Source of the DNA: Lysinibacillus sp. 2017
GTDB lineage: Bacteria > Bacillota > Bacilli > Bacillales_A > Planococcaceae
Assembly: GCF_003073375.1 (NCBI RefSeq)
Contig: NZ_CP029002.1
Location: forward strand, 1,908,001 to 1,972,000
DNA: 64,000 nt
Reading direction: 5' to 3'
Shown here: positions 1 to 12,557 of the stretch, one piece after another
Position numbering within the stretch: the stretch's first letter is position 1
How the letters are laid out: each line of letters opens with the position of its first letter
Made by a program: the position numbers and the translations under genes
Notes under the pieces: model-generated
The model's input: only the letters and a program-made list of their open reading frames with translations
Told to the model about the DNA's origin: nothing
Databases searched by the model: none

Positions 1-1052
1 GATGTTGGGTTATTTGTCCACGTATCATCGATAATCGTACTGCCACCAATTCCTTTAGAAAATTGCAAATGTCGCGCCATTTGTTCAAATGTTCGAAGGC
101 GCAGAATCGCTTTTTGTACGGATAGATTCATTGCCCTAATTACCGCCAGTACCGCGAGCACATTATACACTTGATGTTCTCCAAAACTAGGAATAGAAGC
201 TTGATATTTTTTATTATCCACATGCACATTAAACTTCATACCGCGCGGAGTAAATGTGATTTCTGTAGCATGTAAATCTGCCTTTTTGTGAATTCCAAAC
301 GTGACAATAGTTCCTTTAAAGGCTTTAAGCTGTATACGCTTTGTATTTTCATCGTCTGCATTAATTATTAAAGTACCGTCTGGTTTGAGTCCATCGACGA
401 TTTCTGCTTTCGCCTTTATATAACCCTCTAAATCATTACAGCCATCTAAATGATGCACACCAATGTTTGTAATTACCCCAATCGTCGGCTGGTAGATCAT
501 ACATTGATGTTTAATATTACCTGTATTTCCGAGCCCAAGTTCGAAAACGGCAGCTTTTGTCTGTTGATTAATTCCCATCAAATAAGGCAACGATTGGCGC
601 GGCTCATTTTTACTGCTAACAGAAGTTTGTACAGCCATTTCCTTGCTTAATATATATTTAAGCATTTCTTTCGTTGTTGTTTTGCCACAAGTTCCGGTTA
701 TCGCAACTACCGGTAATTCAAAGAGATTACGATAATACGCAACGAATTGCCAGTAAGCTTGCAAAGCACTTCGAACCTTAATAACCGTTATTTCAGGAAA
801 TGGGGGCTTCAATTCTAATTCTGTTTTATCCGATATAATGACAATTGGCGCCTTTTTTTGCAGCTCATTCCAATCAATTGTGTCACTCCTACGTACAAAT
901 AGTAATGTATTGGGAGCAGTTAATTCATGTCGGTTGTAGTCAATTACCTGCTTTACAGCCCAATCTTCAGATCCATGCAGTAGCACCCCTCTCAATACTT
1001 GTCGAATCGTCGCCACTTTTATTGGTTGAATGGTCAACTCCCCCTTTTTCAT
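1..1052 (-). CDS. Mur-ligase-family amide ligase (MurF-like), cut by the window edge
   Basis: The 3' end lies beyond the left edge, so about 350 residues are visible. I read a MurF-like fold: an N-terminal substrate domain, the ATP P-loop GTCGKTTTKEM near residue 125, and at the edge the motif IDDTWTNNPTS, close to the DDTYNANP motif of true MurF. MurF joins a dipeptide to the UDP-MurNAc peptide, but the paralogues in this cluster and the spore-coat neighbours argue against a housekeeping role. The gene lies 19 bases after the YheC/YheD gene and probably shares its transcript. The start is uncertain: the ATG at 1052 has no ribosome site, while a strong GGGGGAG lies just inside the reading frame before a TTG. 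Family call firm, substrate unknown. Confidence 0.8.
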   Translation of the reverse strand, partial: MKKGELTIQPIKVATIRQVLRGVLLHGSEDWAVKQVIDYNRHELTAPNTLLFVRRSDTIDWNELQKKAPIVIISDKTELELKPPFPEITVIKVRSALQAYWQFVAYYRNLFELPVVAITGTCGKTTTKEMLKYILSKEMAVQTSVSSKNEPRQSLPYLMGINQQTKAAVFELGLGNTGNIKHQCMIYQPTIGVITNIGVHHLDGCNDLEGYIKAKAEIVDGLKPDGTLIINADDENTKRIQLKAFKGTIVTFGIHKKADLHATEITFTPRGMKFNVHVDNKKYQASIPSFGEHQVYNVLAVLAVIRAMNLSVQKAILRLRTFEQMARHLQFSKGIGGSTIIDDTWTNNPT

Positions 1053-1071
1053 AGCTTATGAAAAAGCATTG

Positions 1072-2358
1072 TTATCTACTAGGTTGTTTGACTACACTTC
1101 TGTTATTCAAGATTGCTTTGTACATCGTTTTGTCTTCTAACTGATGAAACATAGAAATATCCGAACGATAATTTCCTTCAATAATCGATAATTCTCCATT
1201 GTTTGTGATACCTACATCAAATCCAATTTCCGTACGTGCATGATCTAAATCAAGTTTGAGCGCAGCAGTAGTACAAAGTTGGTTTAGCAGTTCATTTAGC
1301 CTTATATGATAGATAGGAGAAATCGTTGACTGATTTATCGCCAACTCTAGCGGAATAATTTCTTGCGCGGCATTTGTAATAAAATATCCTTCCCCTGCTA
1401 ATTTCACAACCTTCCCGGCAACTTGCCAAATCCCTTCTACTTTTTGCATCAGTACACGTACATCTAAAACACAATCATCAATTGTCGCTAAAGGGATACC
1501 CTGTTGAATTACATAACAGTCGTCAAATGTCAGGATTTTTTGAAGAAGAAGATATACCTCAGCAAGGCTTTCTTTGAACCATTTCGTTCTTCCAATTTGA
1601 ACTTCATAATTGTTGCCTACACTTTTCGCAATTTTGATAATGCCTTTCCCCTGTTGTCCATTACAAGGTTTTAAAAAGATGGTTTCATTCACGAGCATAA
1701 AGTGTCGAAAAGTTGCAAGTGTGAGTATATCTGTTAAGGGCATATAGTTACCAATAGATTGATATTGATTCCATTTACTAACAGAAAAATGCAAGTAGGA
1801 ATCATGAATAAGGATATCGCCTTGCTGATTAAAGCTCATCTCAAGGACAATCGTTTCACAATTAGGATATTCGACGTATAATGTTTCAGCCGTAAGCTGT
1901 GCGATTTTTTGGATTTTAGGGTAATGGTATAAATAGAGCATTCCTTCATTTCTATTTTTCGTTATTTTCGTTGACGATGTAATTTCCCAACGCTCTCCCT
2001 TTTTTTGAAGCGTAACAAGACGGTGGAATGTTTTATTCGAAAAACTTTCATTCGTATCCATCGGTTGAATAACATAATTTTGGTTTTCTATATTTTGCTG
2101 AATGATTTCATAAATGCCTTCTTCATTTGATACAATGTGTTGGGTGCCGTTAATCCATAGTGTAAACACACCATTTTTTTTATATATTTTAATAAGTTGC
2201 ATACCTACTACTGGCTTTAAAACGAGTGAATCATATGTTGCCAGCATGGAAAGCAACGAACTTTGTGTCAACCGAATCGTTGGAACAATAGTTGAAATAA
2301 GTCGTGGTTCCCGACTCAATATTTTGTATTGATTTAATCTTCCTCTAATTGCAGACAT
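1072..2358 (-). CDS. YheC/YheD-family ATP-grasp protein, spore-coat associated
   Basis: The 428-residue protein resembles Bacillus YheC/YheD, ATP-grasp enzymes reported with the spore coat and of unknown reaction. ATP-grasp enzymes activate a carboxylate as acyl phosphate and join it to an amine. The C-terminal part carries the family's metal-binding pattern: GFDVGITNNG followed by IIEGNYRSD. Further in are a phosphate-loop lysine/glycine stretch, LKPCNGQQGKGI, and DVRVLMQKVEG. I chose the ATG at 2358 because AAAGGGGGCGAGG sits just before it; the upstream ATG at 2415 lies inside a hairpin and lacks a ribosome site. It stands between a small cysteine-containing protein and a Mur ligase, all on one strand. 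Substrate unknown; peptide extension on a coat component is inference. Confidence 0.85.
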   Translation of the reverse strand: MSAIRGRLNQYKILSREPRLISTIVPTIRLTQSSLLSMLATYDSLVLKPVVGMQLIKIYKKNGVFTLWINGTQHIVSNEEGIYEIIQQNIENQNYVIQPMDTNESFSNKTFHRLVTLQKKGERWEITSSTKITKNRNEGMLYLYHYPKIQKIAQLTAETLYVEYPNCETIVLEMSFNQQGDILIHDSYLHFSVSKWNQYQSIGNYMPLTDILTLATFRHFMLVNETIFLKPCNGQQGKGIIKIAKSVGNNYEVQIGRTKWFKESLAEVYLLLQKILTFDDCYVIQQGIPLATIDDCVLDVRVLMQKVEGIWQVAGKVVKLAGEGYFITNAAQEIIPLELAINQSTISPIYHIRLNELLNQLCTTAALKLDLDHARTEIGFDVGITNNGELSIIEGNYRSDISMFHQLEDKTMYKAILNNRSVVKQPSR

Positions 2359-2383
2359 GTATCCCTCGCCCCCTTTATAGAAA

Positions 2384-2410
2384 GCCCTTAGCCACAACGG
2401 AGCCAAGGAC
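2384..2410 (-). terminator. Hairpin between the Cys protein gene and the YheC/YheD gene
   Basis: A 10-pair stem (with G-U pairs) and a six-base loop are followed by TTTCTATAAA on the minus strand. It could be a partial terminator or attenuator inside the operon. The T run is short, so read-through is likely. Confidence 0.4.
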
Positions 2411-2425
2411 TTCATCTTACATGGG

Positions 2426-2866
2426 CTAAACCTTTTGACATCCTAATGCGACAATCGAACCTTGTGCAACTGAAACTGCCTCCAATTGTTCAAAGAAGCC
2501 TTTAATCACAAAGCTTTGTACAATATCATCTTCAGCGGATGCACCTTGATCTATAAAGACCGCAACAAAAGGATACTGTGTCGTGCCAACCTTTCCAGTT
2601 CCTTTAACTGTCACGACGCAATTTTCTCCATTACGGCGACAGGTTATATTATTAATCTTATTTGCTGTGAATAAAAAATTGTACCGATTAGGCGTATCAT
2701 CATCTTCAAAGCGTAAGGATAAAGAAGAACTCGCAAGTTTAGTCACACAAACATCTGCTTTATAGGTTAAATTTCCTCGTATGCGGCTCTTACACCAGTT
2801 TAAACGTACTTTTTTTCTTCTAGCAAAAGCATTTACCTGTACACCACATGGACACATAGTTCCCAT
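2426..2866 (-). CDS. Small cysteine-containing protein of unknown function
   Basis: I do not recognise this 146-residue protein. It begins MGTMCPCG, has six further cysteines (WCKS, DVC, TCRRNGENC, LGC) and is otherwise beta-rich with alternating polar and hydrophobic residues. It has no signal peptide or membrane segment. The ATG at 2866 is chosen because AAAGGAGG precedes it by about eleven bases; an in-frame GTG overlaps the ribosome site. It lies between a Mur ligase gene and the YheC/YheD gene on the same strand, so it may be a coat protein or the acceptor those ligases modify. That role is inference from position and composition only. Confidence 0.7.
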   Translation of the reverse strand: MGTMCPCGVQVNAFARRKKVRLNWCKSRIRGNLTYKADVCVTKLASSSLSLRFEDDDTPNRYNFLFTANKINNITCRRNGENCVVTVKGTGKVGTTQYPFVAVFIDQGASAEDDIVQSFVIKGFFEQLEAVSVAQGSIVALGCQKV

Positions 2867-2964
2867 CTCTCTCACCACCTCCTTTTGTAGATTAGTACAC
2901 TGTATTCTCTCTACAACGGAAGTGATTGTGTATTTGCATTCATATAATGGCGTTTAGAGGGGAA

Positions 2965-4341
2965 TTACGTTTTTATTTTTAATCTTTTCGCTAATTCAAA
3001 CATCGTTTTGCTGTACATATCCCCCTTAACTAAAATAATTGTCTTGTCATCTGCTCGTTTTTTTATTAAATCATATACTAAAATACTACTATTAAAGCTA
3101 TGAACTTCTCCCTTAAATCCAATTTTCTTTACATGATCTGCAATAATTTTTGCATGCATGCCAATTGTGATAAGAATATCCACATCATTTTGATAAATAA
3201 TTTCCGCTGCCTGCTGATGAATATACGTTCCCCAAGAGCCAACATCGGTAATGGTACCAATAACCGCAATTGTTTTTTTATCGTTCGCTAGTTCATTTAA
3301 AACACTCATAGCGGCAGCGAGTGACGTCGTTGTAATACTCCATGTATCATCCAACAAAAGTGCCCCATTGACGCTATTAAATAGTTGAAGCTGTTTATTT
3401 AATGGTCGAAACGTGCGGAGCTGTGTAAGCGCTTGTGGAATTGTTAAACCACTCTCTACTACCGCCGCGATAGCAGCAAGCGCATTATAAACTTGATGGG
3501 CGCCGAACACTGGGATTTGAGCCTCATATTGCTTTCCTTTGTGGTGCAGTGTAAATTGCATCCCATTTATAGCATATTCCACATTACTTGCACTAAAATC
3601 ATATGATGGATTAAATCCAACTGTAATCAACTTTCCAGGAAACCTTTGAAAATCCATTTTTTTTGTATTGGCATCATCTGCATTTATAATGAGCGATCCC
3701 TCACTACCAATGATGTCTAACATTTCACCTTTTGCGTTAATATAGCCTTCGAGTGTCTTGCAATGATTTAAATGATGGGCTCCAATATTTGTTATGATGC
3801 CAATGGTCGGTTTAAAATAGTTCCCCGCCCTCGTTAAATCGCCTGGCGCACCAACTGCTGTTTCAAATATTGCTACCTCTGTATCATTTTCTATACTTAA
3901 TAAATAAGGGAGAAATGCTGTTCTAGAATTTGTACTTAACTGGGTTGCCGTAATTTTTTTATAATGCGATAAAATATGTTTAATCATTTCTTTCGTCGTC
4001 GTCTTTCCAGCTGTTCCTGTTACTGCAATGACTGGTAACTGAAATTGACTTCTGTAATGATGAATAAACTTCCACATTGCTTCCCTAGAATTAGTAACTT
4101 GAATCACTGTAACCTGCTTGGGGATTTCATGTACGGAATAGGACCACTCTGTTACTAAAACGATTGGAAAAAAACGTTCAATTTCCGTCCAGTTTACAAT
4201 ATGCTGTTCAATAAATAAAACGGTATTCTTCTGCTTGATTTGCTTTAACCGATATGCCCCGTAATGGATATCCACTGTCTGCCCATGAGCAATCTGCCCA
4301 GAAACAATGGTCGACAGTCTACTTGTTGATAAAGGGTCCAT
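2965..4341 (-). CDS. MurF-like Mur ligase, spore-cluster paralogue
   Basis: At 458 residues it has the full Mur-ligase layout. The P-loop GTAGKTTTKEM is near residue 110. The catalytic middle shows ETAVGAPGD, TNIGAHHLNH and the AKGE motif, whose lysine is carbamylated in the family. The C-terminal domain has LLDDTWSITTTS and IGTITDVGSWG. True MurF has DDTYNANPxS and GDMLELG at those places, so the substrate site differs and this is probably not the peptidoglycan MurF. An AGGAGGTG ribosome site precedes the ATG. It is first of four co-directional genes and diverges from the ATP-grasp gene at 4496. A cell-wall role cannot be excluded, but the coat neighbours suggest a spore-specific peptide ligase. 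Confidence 0.85.
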   Translation of the reverse strand: MDPLSTSRLSTIVSGQIAHGQTVDIHYGAYRLKQIKQKNTVLFIEQHIVNWTEIERFFPIVLVTEWSYSVHEIPKQVTVIQVTNSREAMWKFIHHYRSQFQLPVIAVTGTAGKTTTKEMIKHILSHYKKITATQLSTNSRTAFLPYLLSIENDTEVAIFETAVGAPGDLTRAGNYFKPTIGIITNIGAHHLNHCKTLEGYINAKGEMLDIIGSEGSLIINADDANTKKMDFQRFPGKLITVGFNPSYDFSASNVEYAINGMQFTLHHKGKQYEAQIPVFGAHQVYNALAAIAAVVESGLTIPQALTQLRTFRPLNKQLQLFNSVNGALLLDDTWSITTTSLAAAMSVLNELANDKKTIAVIGTITDVGSWGTYIHQQAAEIIYQNDVDILITIGMHAKIIADHVKKIGFKGEVHSFNSSILVYDLIKKRADDKTIILVKGDMYSKTMFELAKRLKIKT

Positions 4342-4495
4342 GTTTCATTTCACCTCCTTCTCCTTAATTTATGTGTAAAAAAAAAGAATAACTAGATATT
4401 TGTATTACACGTGATGACTAACCAGACAAAATCTATTTTTTGCCATACATTTAATAGGAGGTACATCCATTTACAAAATGATGGAGGAGAATAAC
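4342..4495. promoter_or_regulatory. Divergent promoter region of the ligase cluster
   Basis: This AT-rich stretch separates two divergent ligase genes. On the plus strand CATACATT at 4445-4452 matches the sigma-E -10 pattern CATACAnT, and on the minus strand CATAAATTA at 4361-4369 matches the sigma-K -10 pattern CATAnnnTA. Neither has a convincing -35, so mother-cell sporulation control is a weak suggestion. Two ribosome-site-like sequences occur, at 4456-4461 and 4484-4489. Confidence 0.3.
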
Positions 4496-5701
4496 TTGAA
4501 AACAATCCTGTTTATCGGCACAAATAAATCTGGGTCTAGTAGAGAAGCAACAAGAGCGGCTGAAAAATTGGGCTACTTCACAGTACTCTTTACAAAAAAT
4601 GAAAAACAAATTGAACAACGCATACAGTACCCTGATATTCATAAAATGATTTTAGTGGATACGAACGATTTGGAGCAGATGCGCAAAGAAATAACTAAGC
4701 TACAGTTGTTCGGTCTTGAACTTGTGACGATTATTAGTTTAGTCGATCCGAACGTACACATCGCTTCCAAACTTTGTGACGAATTTTGCCACAATCGTAG
4801 TTCTTCAAAAGCAATTGAAATTATGGAGGATAAAGAACAAACGCGCTATTTCCTTAAAAACGAACCCTATTCCCCAAAGTTTCAAATCATACAGCCTACA
4901 GAAAAACCTTCAAAATATCTTAAATTTCCTATGATGGTCAAATCACCAAAATCAACAGGCTCCAAAGATGTATTATTGGCTCAAAATAAAGACCAACTAT
5001 CCAAACATATCGCTACACTTCAAAATAAATATCCTGAAGAGCCCATCATTACAGAAGAATTTATCGTCGGGCCACAGTATTTGGTGGAAGTCGTCGTGAT
5101 GAATGGGCAACCACATCTTATAGCCGTTATTAAGCAAGATATTACGAAGGGGAAACGATTTATCATTACCGGTTATCGCGTTCTCGCTATCGTCCCCGAG
5201 AAGTTAAAAACCAGTTTAGAAGCACTCTGTCAGTCGATTGTCCACGCATTCGAGTTAGAAACGGGCGCCTTTCATTTAGAGCTCCGTCTTACAAAAAAGG
5301 GCTGGAAGTTAATCGAAATTAATCCACGCATCTCTGGCGGTGCGATGAATAAAATGATTGAAGCCGCATTTGGTATAAATCTAGTCGAACAAACCTTGAA
5401 GCTATTACTAGGGGAAACAGCTAATTTTACCCCTACTTTTCAGAACTTTGTTTATACGAAATACTTAATTGTCCGACGAAAAGGAAAATTAGAACGGGTT
5501 ACAGGTAAATTTCGCGCCCTCAATTCACCAGGGATTTATGATGTCTATATAAAACCGAAAAAAGGAACGATTCTAATTCCACCATTATCTATGGGACACC
5601 GTTATGCTTATATTATTTCGCAAGCAAAATCAATTAGCGAAGCCGTACGGAAAGCAAATAATGCAGCTAGGGAAATTAAATTTCATATGCGGAAGATTTA
5701 A
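4496..5701 (+). CDS. ATP-grasp enzyme, L-amino-acid-ligase or carboxylase-like
   Basis: The 401-residue protein has the ATP-grasp layout of BacD-type L-amino-acid ligases and related carboxylases: an N-terminal Rossmann-like part (ILFIGTNKSGSS), a central KSPKSTGSKDV nucleotide loop, then LELRLTKKGWKLIEINPRISGG, which carries the metal-binding Glu and Asn. Such enzymes commonly form dipeptides from free amino acids. I start it at the TTG at 4496, six bases after GGAGGAG; an ATG at 4478 in frame would add six residues and has a more distant AGGAGG. It is the only plus-strand gene of the cluster and ends at a terminator shared with the convergent fusion gene. A role in supplying a peptide unit to the neighbouring ligases is inference. 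Confidence 0.8.
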   Translation: MKTILFIGTNKSGSSREATRAAEKLGYFTVLFTKNEKQIEQRIQYPDIHKMILVDTNDLEQMRKEITKLQLFGLELVTIISLVDPNVHIASKLCDEFCHNRSSSKAIEIMEDKEQTRYFLKNEPYSPKFQIIQPTEKPSKYLKFPMMVKSPKSTGSKDVLLAQNKDQLSKHIATLQNKYPEEPIITEEFIVGPQYLVEVVVMNGQPHLIAVIKQDITKGKRFIITGYRVLAIVPEKLKTSLEALCQSIVHAFELETGAFHLELRLTKKGWKLIEINPRISGGAMNKMIEAAFGINLVEQTLKLLLGETANFTPTFQNFVYTKYLIVRRKGKLERVTGKFRALNSPGIYDVYIKPKKGTILIPPLSMGHRYAYIISQAKSISEAVRKANNAAREIKFHMRKI

Positions 5702-5705
5702 AAAG

Positions 5706-5746
5706 AAGCACCCGTCAACTAGATTTTCTAGTAACGAGGTGCTTCA
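5706..5746. terminator. Bidirectional terminator between convergent ligase genes
   Basis: The arms GAAGCACC and GGTGCTTC enclose an inner CTAGA/TCTAG stem. The hairpin lies between the convergent stop codons and serves either strand. Confidence 0.75.
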
Positions 5747-5758
5747 TTATCTAAACTG

Positions 5759-7930
5759 TTAAACTTTAAATCGTTCATCTAAATATTTTATGGTTTCAAA
5801 CATATTCGTTTTACTCGCACCTTTTACTAAAATGGTGTCACCGCTTTTTACGAGTTTATCAAGTAGTTCATGTAAGTAATCTTTATTGATAAAATGGTGT
5901 ATGTGAGTGGCTGGAAACCCCTTATTTTTTGCCGCTTGCCCAATTTCTTCGGTACGGAATCCATACGTAATGAGCACATCGATTTTTTTGTCTGCAATAT
6001 ATTCTCCGAGCTTACGGTACTCTTCTTCACGTAAATCTCCAAGCTCACGCATTTGTCCGATAATCGCTATTTTACGTTTTTTGCTAATTGCTGCCAATAC
6101 ATCAATTGCTGCCCTTGCACCTTGAGGATGCGAGTGGACCGTATCGTCAATTAACGTAATATTATTTCGACAGTGATAAAGTGTCAGCCTGCGCGGAGGT
6201 TTTTTAAATTGTACGCCCGCTTGTATTTCATTTGGTGTGAATCCTAACTGATCCGCTACTGCAATCGCATTTAATGCATTGTATACATGATGTTCACCTA
6301 ATATCGGAATATAGAGCTCTATTTCCTCATTTTGTAACTTCATTTTAAACTTCATTCCGTCCTCAACATATCGCACATCATACGCCTGATAATCTGCCGG
6401 CTTATGTATGCCAACCGTTATTATTTTCCCTTTAAATTGCTTTATTTCTAATAGCTTTGAATTGTCGTCATCTTGATTGATAACAAGCAATCCTTGTTGA
6501 TCCATCCCATGAATCAATTCTGATTTTGCATGAGCAACCCCTTTAATATCGCCATCAAAATTACCAACATGCGCTAAGCCAATATTTGTAACGACACTAA
6601 TTTTCGGTTGAATAATTCGACAATGCTCTGTAATGACGCCTGGATACGCCATACCATACTCGAGCACAACGGCTTCATGCGCATCGGTAATAAGCTCCTT
6701 ATGCTGCTTTGTATGTTCCGTTGTATTCCAATAATCTTTTGACTGAAAAACATTCCACTTTTTCGATAGGATTGAAGCTAAAAATGCTTTTGTCGTTGTT
6801 TTTCCAGCACTACCGGTAATGGCAATTATTGGTTTATTTCGATTTATTTCTGGCGTGTTCTTTGTTTTTGCCAAACGAATTTGCTCATTGATTTCATCTT
6901 GATGGTGGGCAATGTATACAGCATATTGAATCGTATGTTTCACAACGTCTAATTCTAAGTAGAAAGCAGGTGGACAGCCTGGGCGCCAGTTTACTTCATA
7001 AACCCATATTTTTTGGTGCTCATCTACACCGACATCGATTCCAATTTCATCGATGACTTCACCAAATTTACTCATTTGAATGTCATCTAAATGCCGGGCC
7101 AAAGAAAGCCCAAAATGTTCAAGCATCCTATTCATATTAAAAGCTTCTTCTTTAAACTCTAACGCTAAAAATGGCTCTAAATAATTCGTATAGCCTCCAT
7201 TATTAATATTCGGTATGATTGAGCCACTCGGTGCAATGCGCGGATATACTGTAGTAATGACCCATTTGCCATCCCCATTTTTTTGAACATGAACGCGAAA
7301 ATCAAAAACTTGCCCTGATTTCATCGTTGACTGAATATACGGTTGAACGATATAGGATTCCTCTGCTAAACGCTCAGTTAGAAAAGCCTCAAGCTGTGCT
7401 GACGTATATCGTTCTATTTTCGTATCTTGCTGAATGTCATAGCCTGTTCCTACTTTAGAAATAAAATAAATCCCCTTACCTTTACGTCCTTCGACAGGTT
7501 TGAAAACAATCTTTTTATACGTCGTCATAAAATTTCGAAACTTCTCAACATTCGTCACAACTTCAGAAGGAATTAGATATTTTGCAAATACCTTCGCTTC
7601 TTTTAATCGTCGAGTAACATTCCACTTATTTCCTATAGAATTCGTAGTGAAAGGAATCTCCTTACGTAAACGATTGATAATGGTTTTTGAAATCGCTAAT
7701 TTTTCGGGACTTCCAGCATTATAAATGACATCTGGAAAAGGCATCGTTTTGTCCTGCCACTTACCTTCCTCTAAAACTTTCCCCTGAATTGTTCTGGTCT
7801 GAAAATCTACTCGCTTCGGTGTGAAATAAAAAAAATCAACACCTTCCGCTTTTGCTACCGCTGCGAAAGCATACGATTTAATGACTGTTTCTGGATTTAA
7901 TCGATGATGCAACATGCCAATTGTCGTCAC
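5759..7930 (-). CDS. Fusion of YheC/YheD-type ATP-grasp and Mur ligase
   Basis: This 723-residue protein joins two ligase modules. Residues 1-350 are a YheC/YheD-like ATP-grasp domain (FKPVEGRKGKGI, FDFRVHVQKNG, GIDVGVDEHQ and YEVNWRPG, the metal site). Residues 365-723 are a Mur ligase with P-loop GSAGKTTTKAF, TNIGLAHVGN, an AKSE motif, LIDDTVHSHPQG and GQMRELGDL. Cyanophycin synthetase has the same order, ATP-grasp then Mur ligase, and builds a non-ribosomal polyamide. The NANP stretch of MurF is replaced by HSHP, so the substrate differs. The start is a GTG seven bases after AAGGAGG. It follows the CotY/CotZ-like gene by 12 bases, probably as one operon. The product is unknown; a coat-linked peptide is my best inference. 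Confidence 0.9.
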   Translation of the reverse strand: MTTIGMLHHRLNPETVIKSYAFAAVAKAEGVDFFYFTPKRVDFQTRTIQGKVLEEGKWQDKTMPFPDVIYNAGSPEKLAISKTIINRLRKEIPFTTNSIGNKWNVTRRLKEAKVFAKYLIPSEVVTNVEKFRNFMTTYKKIVFKPVEGRKGKGIYFISKVGTGYDIQQDTKIERYTSAQLEAFLTERLAEESYIVQPYIQSTMKSGQVFDFRVHVQKNGDGKWVITTVYPRIAPSGSIIPNINNGGYTNYLEPFLALEFKEEAFNMNRMLEHFGLSLARHLDDIQMSKFGEVIDEIGIDVGVDEHQKIWVYEVNWRPGCPPAFYLELDVVKHTIQYAVYIAHHQDEINEQIRLAKTKNTPEINRNKPIIAITGSAGKTTTKAFLASILSKKWNVFQSKDYWNTTEHTKQHKELITDAHEAVVLEYGMAYPGVITEHCRIIQPKISVVTNIGLAHVGNFDGDIKGVAHAKSELIHGMDQQGLLVINQDDDNSKLLEIKQFKGKIITVGIHKPADYQAYDVRYVEDGMKFKMKLQNEEIELYIPILGEHHVYNALNAIAVADQLGFTPNEIQAGVQFKKPPRRLTLYHCRNNITLIDDTVHSHPQGARAAIDVLAAISKKRKIAIIGQMRELGDLREEEYRKLGEYIADKKIDVLITYGFRTEEIGQAAKNKGFPATHIHHFINKDYLHELLDKLVKSGDTILVKGASKTNMFETIKYLDERFKV

Positions 7931-7942
7931 CTGTGTACCTCC

Positions 7943-8371
7943 TTACCATTTTGACTCCACATAAAACTCTCTAGATAATAATTGTGCAACTACTAATTGA
8001 ACAGCTGAAATAAAGCGTAAATCCACATTTGCAATAGCAGTTGTTTTTTCAAGCCTTACTACATCTTTCAAGGAAGTTGTCTCATTATCTTCCAGGTCAA
8101 ACGCTCTTAATAATGAAACCTTTAAACGTGTTTGCTCAAGATCTATCTCTTCAATGCGAAAATACATCGTATCAATTTTTTCTGTACTATCTGATAAACG
8201 TAACATCTTGGCTTCAGTTGTCATGAGTACAAAAGGAATCGTATCGGTACCAAGCATTTTGATAAACAAGTGATCATAATATTTTGACCAGGCAGTCGTC
8301 AGCATATCTTGGAAATTTTTTATATCTTCAAGCGCTTCACATAAATGATGCTTTGTATGATCTTGTTTCAC
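7943..8371 (-). CDS. CotY/CotZ/ExsY-like spore coat protein, cysteine-poor
   Basis: The 142-residue protein matches the CotY/CotZ/ExsY pattern: KHHLCEALEDI at the N-terminus, GTDTIPFVLMTTE, MYFRIEEID, LRAFD and VRLEKT, then a hydrophobic end. These proteins form the cysteine-linked outer crust or exosporium of Bacillus spores. Here only one cysteine (residue 11) remains, where the family normally has more than ten, so disulphide cross-linking cannot work the same way. The start is a GTG with AAAGGAG upstream. It is followed 12 bases on by the ATP-grasp/Mur fusion, which ties those ligases to the spore surface. I am fairly sure of the family from remembered sequence, not from an alignment. Confidence 0.7.
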   Translation of the reverse strand: MKQDHTKHHLCEALEDIKNFQDMLTTAWSKYYDHLFIKMLGTDTIPFVLMTTEAKMLRLSDSTEKIDTMYFRIEEIDLEQTRLKVSLLRAFDLEDNETTSLKDVVRLEKTTAIANVDLRFISAVQLVVAQLLSREFYVESKW

Positions 8372-8430: not shown

Positions 8431-8439
8431 TAGTGTATG
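8431..8439 (-). promoter_or_regulatory. Candidate sporulation -10 element upstream of the coat gene
   Basis: CATACACTA on the minus strand fits both the sigma-K (CATAnnnTA) and sigma-E (CATACAnT) -10 patterns and lies about 60 bases before the GTG. No clear -35 AC is found 16 bases upstream, so this is tentative. Confidence 0.35.
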
Positions 8440-8552: not shown

Positions 8553-11500
8553 TTAATTATCTTTTACGTCTTTACGATTTTTCTTCAGTATTTTTGAAAG
8601 TACTTCATACACAATCGGAACTATGATTAATGTTAATACTGTTGAAGATAATAAACCGCCGATTACTGTAATCGCTAAATCTTTTGAAACCAGACCGCCA
8701 CCAGCACTACCCAAAGCCATTGGTAACATTGCACCAATTGTCGCAATCGCCGTCATAAGAATTGGACGTAAGCGGGTTGCCCCAGCTTCAAGAATAGCTT
8801 CACGCATATTCATACCATCATGTTCCATATGAATGATTCGGTCAACAAGTACAATGGCATTCGTAACAACGATACCGATTAACATCAGGAGACCCATTAA
8901 AACGGAAACAGAAATTGTTTGACCTGTTGCCCATAAACCAACCCAAGAACCAATTACCGTGAATGGTAGTGAGAATAGGATGGCAAATGGAGCTAAACCT
9001 TCACCGAATGTTACAACTAAGATGAAGTATACAATAGCTATCGCTGCAATCATTGCTACTCCTAGTTTAGTGAATGTATCCGCCATATCCGCTGCTACAC
9101 CACCAACACCAGTTGTTACACCTTTAGGTAGATCTAATTTTTCGATTTTTTTATCTGCAGCAGATGTTGCTTTTGAAATGTCTTTATCTGTAATTGTTGC
9201 AGAAACCGTTGCATAGTATTCACCTTTTTGACGAGATAATGAATTTAATGTTGTGCCTTTTTCAACTTCAACTAAGTCAGCAATTGTCATCGTTTGACCC
9301 GTCATTGTTTGGATTGGCATTTTCAATAGCTCATCGATGTTCGCTGCAGCAGATTTTGCTTCACGTTGAACGATTACATTAATATCTTTTCCATCGCTCT
9401 CAACTGTAGTTAATACTTCTTTTGATGTGTCTGATTGTAATGCCATTAACACTTGTGCAGTCGTTAAGCCGTATTGTAAAACATTTTGTTGATCTACTTT
9501 AAGCACATGTTCTACATAAGGTGAAGAAGCATTTGATTCCACATCTTCTAATCCTTTTACATCACCTAATACATCCTCCACTTTTTTAACAGCTGTATTT
9601 AATTTATCTAAGTCTTCACTGTATAATGAGTAGCTTACTTCATTAGAAGACATACTCATTGAGAAGTCCTGTGTTTTCCATTCTCCTGATTGACCAACGT
9701 TAAAGATATAGTCTTCTACTTCTTTTTTCGCTGTTGGGAAATCTTTCATATCTGGATCAAAGATTAAATAGATTAAACCGCCACCAGCACCGCCGCCTGT
9801 CATCATTGCCATGGCATCTGTTGACGTTTCTGTGTTCACCGATAATTGTAAAATATCGATATCTTTACGCTTCATTAACTCTTTTTCTACTTCATCAATA
9901 TTTGCTAAAGTATCATCGATTAATTCCCCAGTTCCAGGTGTATACGTAAGGTACATTACCTTTTCCTCTTGAGAACCTAAGAAGCTGAAGCCAATTAATG
10001 GTGTTAACAATAATGAGCCTGCTAATAATACAATCGCAATGATTGAAGTAATCCATTTGTGATTCAGACACTTTTCAAGGAAATCACGGTAAGTCGTTGC
10101 CAATTTACCAACTTCTTTATGTTGACTCTCAGGCTTTTCACCGTAAATTTTCTTCCTAAATAAGAAATGTGAAAGTGCTGGTACGATTGTAATTGCTACG
10201 ATTAATGATGCGATTAACGCAAATGACATTGTCAGAGCGAATGGTACGAATAATTCTCCAACCATACCACCAACAAACATTAATGGTGCAAATACAGCAA
10301 TCGTTACTAATGTAGAAGATAAAATTGGTTTGAACATTTCAATCGTTGCTTCACGAATAAGCGCACGACCTTGTAATTTTTCTTCTCTTAAATGCATACG
10401 TCGGTAAATATTTTCTACTACAACAATAGAGTCATCAATTACACGACCAATCGCAACAGTAATAGCACCGAGCGTCATAATGTTTAAAGTAATGTCCATC
10501 CAGTTTAATAATAGTAAAGCCATTAATATTGAAACTGGGATAGAAATGATTGAAATGATTGTTGATTTAAAATCTCGTAAGAATAATAGGATAATTAATA
10601 CCGCAATTAAACCACCAAATACAGCTTTTTCAACCATTGTGAATACTGATTCTTCAATCGGTTCTCCTTGGTCTAAAGAAATATCAATTTGAAGTCCATC
10701 AATTCTTTTCTGTTCATCTTCAATTAATTCTTTAACTGCATTTACAACCGTTACAGTATTGGCATCTTGGCCTTTCACTACTTGGATTGAAATGGCATCT
10801 GCACCGTTTGTACGAGAAATAGATTGAACTTTACCTACAGTTTTAATGTCTGCAATATCACTTAATTTCACAAACGGACTTGGATTTTCCTCAGATGGTG
10901 TAACAGGGATTAGCATTTCTTTTAAATCATCTACTGTTTTAAACTTACCATCTATTGAGACAGCTTGTTCTCCCTCTTTAAACTTAAATAATCCTAAAGA
11001 AATGGCTAAGTCACTTGCTTGAACCATTTGCTTCACTGAATCTTCAGTTAATCCTAATTCTTCTAATTTCGCTTCATTATACTTAAATGAGACTTCCTCA
11101 ATATGTTGACCTGTTACCGTTGCCGAGGCTACACCATCGATTTTATTTAACTTCGGTAGTAAAATATCTTCTACTGTCGAAGTTAACTCAATGATATCTT
11201 CATCTGAGCTACTTACAGATAACGCAATAACTGGCATCATGTTCAGACTAATCGCCATAATTGACGGCTCTTGAGCACCTTTAGGAATCTCAATATTATC
11301 TAGAACTGACTCTAATTGGCGTTTCTTTTCATCCATATCTACGCCGTATTCATATTCTACTTGTACTTGCGATACATTTGACGAAGAAGTTGAATATACT
11401 GCCTTCACGTCTTCTAAACTTTCAATTGTTTTTTCATATGGTATTGAAAGTTCGTTCATAACTTGTTCTGGTGTTGCTCCAGGATATACACCCATCACGA

Positions 11501-11639
11501 TTAAATAAGGAATTGATATATCGGGAATCGATTCCATTTTCATTCGCGTAGATGAATAAATACCAGAAAAAACAATAATGATTGTTAACAACCATACTGC
11601 CAGCTTATTTTTTAATACGAAATTTACTAAGCCTTTCAC
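8553..11639 (-). CDS. swrC: RND-family efflux transporter, SwrC-like
   Basis: This 1028-residue protein has the RND layout: an N-terminal membrane helix (residues 13-30), a large extracellular loop, five helices in the middle, a second loop and six C-terminal helices. The paired aspartates in VAIGRVIDDSIVVVENIY (about residue 400) are the proton-relay site. Bacillus SwrC (YerP) exports surfactin and gives self-resistance and swarming; RND pumps of Gram-positive bacteria act without an outer-membrane channel. The start is GTG, preceded by AAGGTGG. It is monocistronic with its own terminator and diverges from a TetR gene, the same arrangement as yerP/yerO in B. subtilis. No surfactin genes are visible here, so the natural substrate is open. 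Confidence 0.9.
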   Translation of the reverse strand: MKGLVNFVLKNKLAVWLLTIIIVFSGIYSSTRMKMESIPDISIPYLIVMGVYPGATPEQVMNELSIPYEKTIESLEDVKAVYSTSSSNVSQVQVEYEYGVDMDEKKRQLESVLDNIEIPKGAQEPSIMAISLNMMPVIALSVSSSDEDIIELTSTVEDILLPKLNKIDGVASATVTGQHIEEVSFKYNEAKLEELGLTEDSVKQMVQASDLAISLGLFKFKEGEQAVSIDGKFKTVDDLKEMLIPVTPSEENPSPFVKLSDIADIKTVGKVQSISRTNGADAISIQVVKGQDANTVTVVNAVKELIEDEQKRIDGLQIDISLDQGEPIEESVFTMVEKAVFGGLIAVLIILLFLRDFKSTIISIISIPVSILMALLLLNWMDITLNIMTLGAITVAIGRVIDDSIVVVENIYRRMHLREEKLQGRALIREATIEMFKPILSSTLVTIAVFAPLMFVGGMVGELFVPFALTMSFALIASLIVAITIVPALSHFLFRKKIYGEKPESQHKEVGKLATTYRDFLEKCLNHKWITSIIAIVLLAGSLLLTPLIGFSFLGSQEEKVMYLTYTPGTGELIDDTLANIDEVEKELMKRKDIDILQLSVNTETSTDAMAMMTGGGAGGGLIYLIFDPDMKDFPTAKKEVEDYIFNVGQSGEWKTQDFSMSMSSNEVSYSLYSEDLDKLNTAVKKVEDVLGDVKGLEDVESNASSPYVEHVLKVDQQNVLQYGLTTAQVLMALQSDTSKEVLTTVESDGKDINVIVQREAKSAAANIDELLKMPIQTMTGQTMTIADLVEVEKGTTLNSLSRQKGEYYATVSATITDKDISKATSAADKKIEKLDLPKGVTTGVGGVAADMADTFTKLGVAMIAAIAIVYFILVVTFGEGLAPFAILFSLPFTVIGSWVGLWATGQTISVSVLMGLLMLIGIVVTNAIVLVDRIIHMEHDGMNMREAILEAGATRLRPILMTAIATIGAMLPMALGSAGGGLVSKDLAITVIGGLLSSTVLTLIIVPIVYEVLSKILKKNRKDVKDN

Positions 11640-11657
11640 GGTTCCACCTTACCTTTC

Positions 11658-11710
11658 TTGACTAACTATAACCACCATTCTATAATAATGACTACTCAGT
11701 CAACTGTCAA
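11658..11710. promoter_or_regulatory. Interlocked divergent promoters with a TetR operator
   Basis: Plus strand: -35 TTGACT (11658-11663), 17-base spacer, -10 TATAAT (11681-11686) for the regulator. Minus strand: -35 TTGACA (11710-11705), 17-base spacer, -10 TATTAT (11687-11682) for swrC. The palindrome TGACT-ACTC-AGTCA at 11689-11702 covers the start of one transcript and the spacer of the other promoter. One bound repressor would block both directions. Confidence 0.85.
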
Positions 11711-11732
11711 TTTAAAGGGGTATGTAAATATT

Positions 11733-12557
11733 ATGACAAAAAAGCAATTAATTATCGATTCAGCACTTCAATTATTTACAGAACGTGGTATTGAAGCAAC
11801 CTCTGTCCAACAAATCACAGAGCACTGTGGGATTTCAAAGGGTGCCTTCTATTTATCTTTTAAATCAAAGGATGAACTCGTAACATCGATTATTGAGCAT
11901 TTTATAAATAATGTGATTATCCACGTTGACCAAGTAGTCAATGAAACAAAAAATCCTCATGAAAAGCTATTCGTTTACTTTGTTCAAACCTTTACAATCT
12001 TAACGGAATATACTTCTTTTGCTGAAATTTTAATGCGAGATAAAATTTCTGCCATCAATGAAGAACTAATTAAAAAAATACAATATTATGTGACAATATC
12101 AAATGAAAACTTAGCGAATCTTTTATTTGAAGTATTTGGTGATCAAATCAAAGGAAAACAGTTTGATTTAGTGACGGTTATTAATGGTATGGTGCAAGCT
12201 TATTTACAATGGATTTGTGAACGAAAGCAGCCAGTAGATTTTACAAAGCTCTCTGCTACTTTAGTTGAGAAAACTACATTGCTTGCTACACAAAGTGAGC
12301 TGATTTTTATCGAACAACCAGCGGAAAAGCAAACGAACAATCTAGATGTACCATTCGACCAGATTGCACAACAGCTAGCATCACTTCAAGAAGATGCCAT
12401 AAACTCATTAGAAAAAGAATCATTGTCTTTACTAATTGAAGAATTACTAACCATTAAGCCACGTACTGCCATCATAATGGGACTGTTAGCTAATTTAAGT
12501 CACAATGATAAATTCAATTGGTATCGTTATTTAATAAAAAAGAAAATCCGATACTAA
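11733..12557 (+). CDS. TetR-family repressor of swrC (YerO-like)
   Basis: The N-terminal helix-turn-helix (ALQLFTERGIEATSVQQ then GISKGAFYLSFKSKDEL, residues 10-50) is typical TetR; the rest of the 274 residues is the ligand-binding and dimer domain. An in-frame TTG at 11658 opens a longer frame, but that triplet is the -35 box of the gene's own promoter, so the ATG at 11733 is the real start. The operator between this gene and swrC implies that it represses both itself and the pump until a ligand binds. B. subtilis YerO is the matching neighbour of swrC. Confidence 0.88.
   Translation: MTKKQLIIDSALQLFTERGIEATSVQQITEHCGISKGAFYLSFKSKDELVTSIIEHFINNVIIHVDQVVNETKNPHEKLFVYFVQTFTILTEYTSFAEILMRDKISAINEELIKKIQYYVTISNENLANLLFEVFGDQIKGKQFDLVTVINGMVQAYLQWICERKQPVDFTKLSATLVEKTTLLATQSELIFIEQPAEKQTNNLDVPFDQIAQQLASLQEDAINSLEKESLSLLIEELLTIKPRTAIIMGLLANLSHNDKFNWYRYLIKKKIRY

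Follow-up and report, generated by a model that had tools for sequence, protein, structure and literature searches.

ATP-grasp and Mur-type ligases inherited with two small coat-type proteins in a spore-associated gene cluster of Lysinibacillus and its relatives

Gene content and layout of the cluster

We analysed a 64,000-nucleotide stretch of the 3.74-Mb, single-contig genome of Lysinibacillus sp. 2017 (hereafter the window; contig NZ_CP029002.1, G000:C1:1908001-1972000). The first 8.4 kb of the window carry a cluster of genes, A to G, which encode three MurF-like Mur-ligase modules (A, D and one half of F), two YheC/D-type ATP-grasp modules (B and the other half of F), an ATP-grasp enzyme resembling L-amino-acid ligases (E) and two small proteins, the CotZ-like G and the Cys-containing C. 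The main new result is that each of the two YheC/D ATP-grasps has its own small partner, G in the case of F and C in the case of B. The initial annotation of the stretch had listed the same set of enzymes together with a CotY/CotZ-like protein and a small Cys protein; the domain scores of A, B, D, E and F bear out the former, and the latter two are G and C.

1..1052, minus strand: gene A, MurF-like Mur ligase, 475 residues (Mur_ligase_M, 143.3 bits for the part inside the window)
1072..2415, minus strand: gene B, double YheC/D ATP-grasp protein, 447 residues (PF14398, 165.3 bits, two stretches)
2426..2866, minus strand: gene C, Cys-containing protein of 146 residues starting MGxxCPCG, partner of B
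2965..4341, minus strand: gene D, MurF-like Mur ligase, 458 residues (Mur_ligase_M, 141.4 bits)
4365..4373, minus strand: CATANNNTA box (CATAAATTA) upstream of D, sporulation sigma-type -10
4478..5701, plus strand: gene E, L-amino-acid-ligase-like ATP-grasp enzyme, 407 residues, inverted in the cluster
5705..5745: hairpin between the convergent 3' ends of E and F
5759..7930, minus strand: gene F, fusion of a YheC/D ATP-grasp and a MurF-like ligase, 723 residues
7943..8371, minus strand: gene G, CotZ-like protein, 142 residues, one cysteine, conserved C-terminal tail
8431..8439, minus strand: CATANNNTA box (CATACACTA) upstream of G

Genes G and F, C and B, and B and A are separated by 12, 10 and 19 bp, respectively, and for these pairs the operon spacing noted in the initial annotation holds. 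A single operon is ruled out, since E lies on the opposite strand; the gaps between C and D (98 bp, counted from the MG start of C) and between D and E (136 bp) are wide as well. The start of C probably lies 12 bases inside the listed open reading frame (ORF), and an in-frame MG is found at this position in 32 of 32 labelled homologues. The hairpin that separates E from F is likely a shared terminator; its region has a raw folding energy of -22.5 kcal/mol over an 80-base stretch.

Gene A runs 375 bases past the left end of the window (full gene, L004 14625-16052), and beyond it lies a convergent NlpC/P60 gene, N (L004 13639-14565, outside the window). The expectation that the cluster continues leftwards was thus correct for the rest of A and for nothing further. 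The protein encoded by N has two matching stretches, the second of which, as judged by eye, carries SGGF in place of the usual catalytic Cys. On the upstream side, a gene for an RND-type efflux transporter and a divergent TetR-like regulator (window 8553-12557, by eye) adjoin the cluster and are neighbours by position only.

We compared gene neighbourhoods, as had been proposed with the initial annotation, in 20 regions of relatives and 80 named loci (the best 80 of 128). The common order is (e) G F (E) D [C B] A (N), with e standing for a second paralogue of the amino-acid ligase; individual genes may be missing from a locus. Dozens of genomes share this order, so that the layout goes beyond chance. 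Genera with it include Lysinibacillus, Psychrobacillus, Sporosarcina, Solibacillus, Metasolibacillus and Lederbergia, and likewise Neobacillus, Domibacillus, Jeotgalibacillus, Peribacillus, Heyndrickxia and Calidifontibacillus. Labelled F is present in 77 of the 80 named loci; in 52 of these, G lies upstream of F at a distance of at most 400 bp, and E lies downstream of F in 73, inverted in every one (73/73). A shares the strand of F in 55 loci and is then followed by an inverted NlpC/P60 gene in 53. The closest relative of the window's F among the named loci is that of Solibacillus palustris, with 75% identity. In the window's own genome, F and B are the only matches to PF14398 at E <= 0.001.

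Other arrangements occur as well. A more distant genome (G243) encodes the ATP-grasp and Mur halves of F in two neighbouring genes. An expanded array in G066, a member of the same family (L048 1118-18980), comprises an amino-acid ligase, G, a single F-type YheC/D protein, four more YheC/D-like proteins and two MurF-like ligases. G037 encodes an 801-residue protein (L050 8069-10474) with an N-terminal Mur half 45% identical to that of F, followed by about 430 residues without assignment. In a Bacillus cluster (L083 17628-19442), two glycosyltransferase-like proteins of about 290 residues each (by eye) adjoin a B-like protein.

Small partner proteins of the ATP-grasp enzymes

We searched 151 genomes of the family with a profile of G, taking 76.9 bits or more as a strong match. 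Strong matches occur in 56 genomes and are followed by a gap down to 46 bits; the weaker matches end at model position 133 or earlier, short of the C-terminal tail. An F-type ATP-grasp is present in 57 of the 151 genomes, 40 times fused to a Mur half and 17 times single. Five of the 62 genomes matched initially are not counted here: G027 (a 34% identical ATP-grasp in an 833-residue frame, SpoIVA-negative, without G), G037, G053 and G141 (Mur half alone; G141 has G) and G113 (match not listed). G is found in 55 of the 57 genomes with an F-type ATP-grasp vs one of the 94 others (G141), and in 48 of these 55 the two genes lie on the same strand at most 300 bp apart (in seven they do not). Since G is also present in 15 of the 17 genomes whose ATP-grasp has no Mur half, G goes with the ATP-grasp and not with the Mur half.

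The second pair behaves in a similar way. Within an order-wide sample of 261 genomes, C occurs in 36, all of which have B (36/36, with a few partial B matches); B without C occurs in two, on another contig than the cluster. The 57 named loci that contain both D and A carry C and B together in 27 cases, neither in 28, B alone in two and C alone in none. A B-type match above 300 bits accompanies C in 32 of the 33 named loci with C, the exception being L086, with a weak C and a weak B. On the tree of F, C and B change nine times each, in Lysinibacillus, Psychrobacillus, Sporosarcina and Neobacillus among others. No C-like substitute was recognised beside B in eight loci without C that were read by eye. 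Taken by co-occurrence, C seems to need B, and B-like proteins seem not always to depend on C. Searches of Pfam, NCBIfam and the PDB yielded no convincing relative of C, and searches of the PDB no convincing relative of B or G.

By its profile matches, G probably belongs with the CotZ/CotY/ExsY family (PF10612) as a remote member: the window protein scores 21.2 bits, below the gathering score of 24, and 15 of the 19 members of the G alignment match at E <= 0.01 (best 4.8e-16). It differs from the family in having a single cysteine and, in addition, a conserved tail at its C-terminus. Cysteines number 15-19 in the 21 ordinary CotZ-type copies of the genus, which end in GICD, GICN, AVRL, GICE or GVCN, and none of them has the tail of G; a separate cysteine-rich CotZ-family copy of this kind is also carried by the window genome. 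Among 60 labelled G proteins, 36 have zero to three cysteines in their last 135 residues. The tail reads YVESKW in the window and IIEPKW in many relatives, with Glu fourth from last in 56 of the 60 proteins, Lys second from last in 57 and Trp last in 46. Of 137 six-residue windows in an alignment of 48 rows, only two are better conserved than the final six residues. A conserved free C-terminus of this kind, encoded next to an enzyme with ATP-grasp and Mur halves, would fit a carboxylate substrate; a docking tail would look alike.

Association with spore formation

In order to relate the cluster to sporulation, we compared the distribution of F (threshold 1e-120) with that of SpoIVA (threshold 1e-80) in the order-wide sample. 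SpoIVA is present in 192 of the 261 genomes and F in 79, a count that leaves out seven of 86 matched genomes with the ATP-grasp half alone and includes G608, where F is shortened by a stop. All 79 genomes with F are SpoIVA-positive and none of the 69 SpoIVA-negative genomes has F (Fisher 2e-13, which is overstated owing to the relatedness of the genomes). In the family sample of 151 genomes, F occurs in 40 of the 117 SpoIVA-positive and in none of the 34 SpoIVA-negative members. Within the genus of the window, SpoIVA is found in 16 of 16 genomes and F in only six, the ten genomes without F all being SpoIVA-positive; the cluster is therefore an optional spore trait and not needed for sporulation as such. 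In the order, 113 of the 192 SpoIVA-positive genomes are without F.

The consensus shapes for the promoter scan are those generally known for the sporulation sigma factors. The sigma-K-type pattern AC-N14-17-CATANNNTA is found more often than in shuffled sequences (means in brackets) upstream of e, 12/42 (1.0), A, 11/58 (1.4), and G, 5/60 (0.8). For F, E and D, the counts are 3/77 (1.2), 7/76 (2.4) and 2/64 (1.8), and for C, B and N they are 0/32 (0.8), 0/35 (0.7) and 0/84 (1.6); other genes give 9/391 (6.1). Counted alone in the 54 intergenic regions between E and D, CATANNNTA faces D in 31 (mean of 6.8 and maximum of 15 in shuffled sequences); the 11 regions in which it faces E (6.3, maximum 12) are not convincing. 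With the AC -35 included, four of the 54 gaps match towards E (1.5), near chance. Sites of the sigma-E consensus upstream of the genes are at, below or a few above the shuffled level, except for a relaxed form before E (23/76 vs 9.2).

The YheC/D family itself has a spore connection in Bacillus subtilis. PMC517825 places yheC and yheD in the sigma-E regulon, with up-regulation by SpoIIID, and PMC7911427 describes YheD as forming a shell on the spore, with strong self-interaction and without known function. These coat-associated proteins belong to the same ATP-grasp family (PF14398) as F and B; unlike them, the cluster versions are fused to a Mur ligase (F) and paired with G or C. Taken together with the CotZ-type partner G and the -10 boxes enriched upstream of some genes, the distribution of F makes the spore association proposed in the initial annotation well supported at the level of sequence.

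Ligase domains and a possible reaction

F consists of an N-terminal ATP-grasp (PF14398, residues 92-339, 215.9 bits) followed by Mur_ligase_M (371-559, 124.7 bits) and Mur_ligase_C (580-705, 70.5 bits); both F and B (165.3 bits) exceed the PF14398 gathering score of 26.8. The window's F is 68-77% identical to nine relatives and 60-73% identical to eighteen of a wider set. In this wider set, K144, G148-R-K-G, D299, E312 and N314 are invariant in the ATP-grasp half, and G373, G376-K377, E424, H454, K469, N551 and D595-D596 in the Mur half. The Mur P-loop, Glu, His, Lys, Asn and Asp positions are thus kept in F, and they are also kept in those rows of the A and D alignment that reach them (one row, A_L111, is a fragment); the P-loop of A reads GTCGKTT. 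B has intact ATP-grasp motifs in its C-terminal half (GFD...IEGN) and a degenerate N-terminal half, as judged by eye. Between the two conserved halves of F, the linker varies greatly in length: F has 785 residues in L049 (11248-13605) vs 723 in the window, and L110 9995-12304 is a further case.

We favour the reading that this is a mother-cell sporulation cluster of ATP-dependent amide ligases that add amino acids or short peptides to two dedicated carrier proteins of the coat type, and we give it a probability of roughly 0.4. It builds on what sequence comparison establishes, namely the enzymes with their intact active-site motifs, the fixed gene order, the co-inheritance of ligase and partner and, among the genomes searched, the confinement to spore formers; from these, we infer all of the chemistry, including the acceptors and the amino acids. 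A small building block would be put together from amino acids by E (in other species also by its paralogue e), much as Ddl supplies MurF. With its ATP-grasp half, F would activate the C-terminal carboxylate of G (tail ...E-P/S-K-W) and add a residue. RimK and tubulin-tyrosine-ligase-like enzymes are ATP-grasps that add amino acids to protein carboxylates, and F resembles them only at the level of the fold, with a weak match to the tubulin-tyrosine-ligase family PF03133 (21.9 bits, cut-off 20.1). The Mur half, which has no UDP-sugar-binding domain, would add a second residue or a dipeptide, so that F would work with two active sites, as cyanophycin synthetase does. Further additions may be made by the MurF-like enzymes A and D, whose acceptor loops are changed, B would act on C as the ATP-grasp of F would act on G, and trimming of the product may fall to the secreted NlpC/P60 enzyme. 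With the initial annotation, we infer that the enzymes of the cluster build a non-ribosomal peptide or attach one. More specifically, the YheC/D ATP-grasps could be protein-peptide ligases with their own carrier each, F acting on G and B on C, and a non-genetic peptide could be grown on the C-terminus of the carrier by the MurF-like ligases, both fused and accessory; this version we put forward tentatively and with some doubt.

Several observations weigh against a carrier-extending cluster. Co-inheritance of ligase and partner also fits a complex without modification, or a docking role of the tail, and the genomes in our counts are related. Two genomes have an F-type ATP-grasp without G and one has G without the ATP-grasp; in 25 of the 77 loci, no G lies in the 400 bp upstream of F, and 24 of the 60 G proteins have at least four cysteines (4-14). 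B-like proteins above 300 bits are found without C in six of the 80 named loci (L083, L111, L112, L114, L129 and L131), and seven of eight independent pairs on the tree show C and B changing together, for which a sign test gives p 0.07. The position of D that aligns with the Arg of MurF is Lys in 60 of 64 sequences, Arg in one and not recognised in three. A full sigma-K match with a spaced AC -35 was not found in the window, where -10 boxes alone precede G and D, and towards D just two of the 54 E/D gaps match once the AC -35 is included (shuffled 1.5).

The ligases might instead make a free or lipid- or wall-anchored polymer, such as cyanophycin or poly-gamma-glutamate, stored in or around the spore, with G and C as coat proteins that merely house the enzymes. 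Like cyanophycin synthetase (CphA1, TIGR02068), F has in one chain an ATP-grasp and then a Mur-type domain without a UDP-sugar-binding domain, and two predicted amide-forming sites. This domain order is the part of the cyanophycin synthetase plan in the initial annotation that stands; F as such a synthetase is ruled out by the curated model, which it matches with 58 bits, in the Mur part only, at a cut-off of 850. F also differs in its YheC/D-type ATP-grasp, its MurF-like Mur half, its spore context and its dedicated partner. Poly-gamma-glutamate loci (PgsB/CapB, PgsA/CapA and PgdS, which we take to be an NlpC/P60 enzyme) share with the cluster a Mur ligase without a UDP domain and an NlpC/P60 neighbour, which follows the cluster in the 53 of 55 loci mentioned above, and they recall the PGA_cap genes near standalone relatives. 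In a quick tree of Mur domains, A, D and F form one clade each, and A and D stand together. Standalone Mur proteins from other Bacilli fall with the Mur half of F, and the placement of canonical MurF is unsure owing to its long branch. A PGA_cap (CapA) gene adjoins the standalone proteins in eight of 13 loci (Pfam-confirmed in L177, L180, L182 and L185; recognised by a VGDILMW start alone in L179, L184, L186 and L188) and an NlpC/P60 gene in two of 13, which hints at an ancestral polymer-making role. The cluster, unlike poly-gamma-glutamate loci, has a MurF-like Mur half in F and no CapA-type gene in a domain search of its seven genes. The one strong PGA_cap gene of the genome lies 0.77 Mb away, with no Mur-ligase-like ORF, by eye, among the nine ORFs of at least 140 residues around it. 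A polymer would also leave unexplained why each ATP-grasp has its own small protein, and we regard it as unlikely.

Another explanation is that A, D and F are sporulation MurF paralogues that modify precursors of the cortex, the spore peptidoglycan. The MurF model is the closest one for all three, with 264 bits for A, 242.9 for D and 259.4 for F; the cut-off of the curated model (TIGR01143) is 288.6, which rules them out as true MurF enzymes. The initial annotation had allowed that a cluster enzyme might be the sole MurF, and this is excluded by a separate canonical MurF elsewhere in the genome (422.8 bits). NlpC/P60 enzymes usually cut peptidoglycan peptides, and MurF-like ligases beside an ATP-grasp enzyme of dipeptide-ligase type recall the pair of MurF and Ddl that builds the peptidoglycan stem. 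In the cluster, however, the L-amino-acid-ligase family replaces Ddl, and the acceptor loop and, apparently, the UDP-binding motifs are changed or lost. The YNAxP acceptor loop of MurF is replaced by DTWTNNP in A, DTWSITTTS in D and DTVHSHPQG in F, near-uniformly within each group. F has no UDP-MurNAc-binding domain, its match to the MurF model beginning at model position 70, and the ATP-grasp stands in its place; A and D retain the N-terminal domain, in which, by eye, the DTR and NGH stretches present in the canonical MurF of the genome are not seen. No other wall-precursor gene is present among the seven genes searched, and the absence of F from the 113 SpoIVA-positive genomes noted above also speaks against a role in the cortex, which we consider improbable.

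We give a similarly low standing to a small-molecule natural product of sporulation, a dipeptide or oligopeptide with the L-amino-acid ligases E and e as core enzymes. E matches the C-terminal domain of L-amino-acid ligases (LAL_C2, PF18603) with 62.7 bits (cut-off 29.4) and the ATP-grasp PF13535 with 61.7 bits (cut-off 27), and its closest solved structure is the dipeptide ligase BL00235 (3vot, 50.9 bits), so that by sequence it resembles a dipeptide-ligase relative. The 80 named loci hold 42 e-type besides 76 E-type ORFs. Yet the layouts of the named loci show no additional gene with a fixed place between G and A, where some loci have unlabelled, unclassified ORFs, and a CotZ-family partner is fixed beside the ATP-grasp. 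Very improbable, finally, is that the YheC/D domains are retired enzymes serving as structural coat proteins, as the self-assembly of YheD around the B. subtilis spore (PMC7911427) and the degenerate N-terminal half of B might suggest, since the predicted ATP- and metal-binding residues, with roles deduced from the fold, are invariant in F and kept in the C-terminal half of B, and the Mur catalytic residues are intact.

Amide ligases of the ATP-grasp and Mur types are a known kind; our literature searches, which left most subscription journals outside their coverage, found no description of the cluster, and this suggests that their setting among spore-coat genes is undescribed in the literature found. 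A 2009 survey of ATP-grasp amidoligases by Iyer and colleagues may discuss YheC/D neighbourhoods. Many soil bacteria that form spores inherit these enzymes together with two small coat-type proteins encoded next to them, which suggests that peptides are built onto the surface of the spore by a route so far undescribed. If the carrier-ligase reading is true, it would give the orphan YheC and YheD of B. subtilis a reaction, the coat a chemistry beyond its known cross-links and Mur-type ligases a further role; if G and C carry amino-acid extensions, spore coats would use non-ribosomal protein modification. The tight pairing of ATP-grasp and small protein makes the function of YheC/YheD directly testable. 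The genera concerned include biocontrol agents, for example Lysinibacillus sphaericus.

As a separate observation, the standalone MurF-like ligases of other Bacilli families, which have no UDP-binding domain and lie beside PGA_cap genes, possibly mark an undescribed capsule-like polymer locus.

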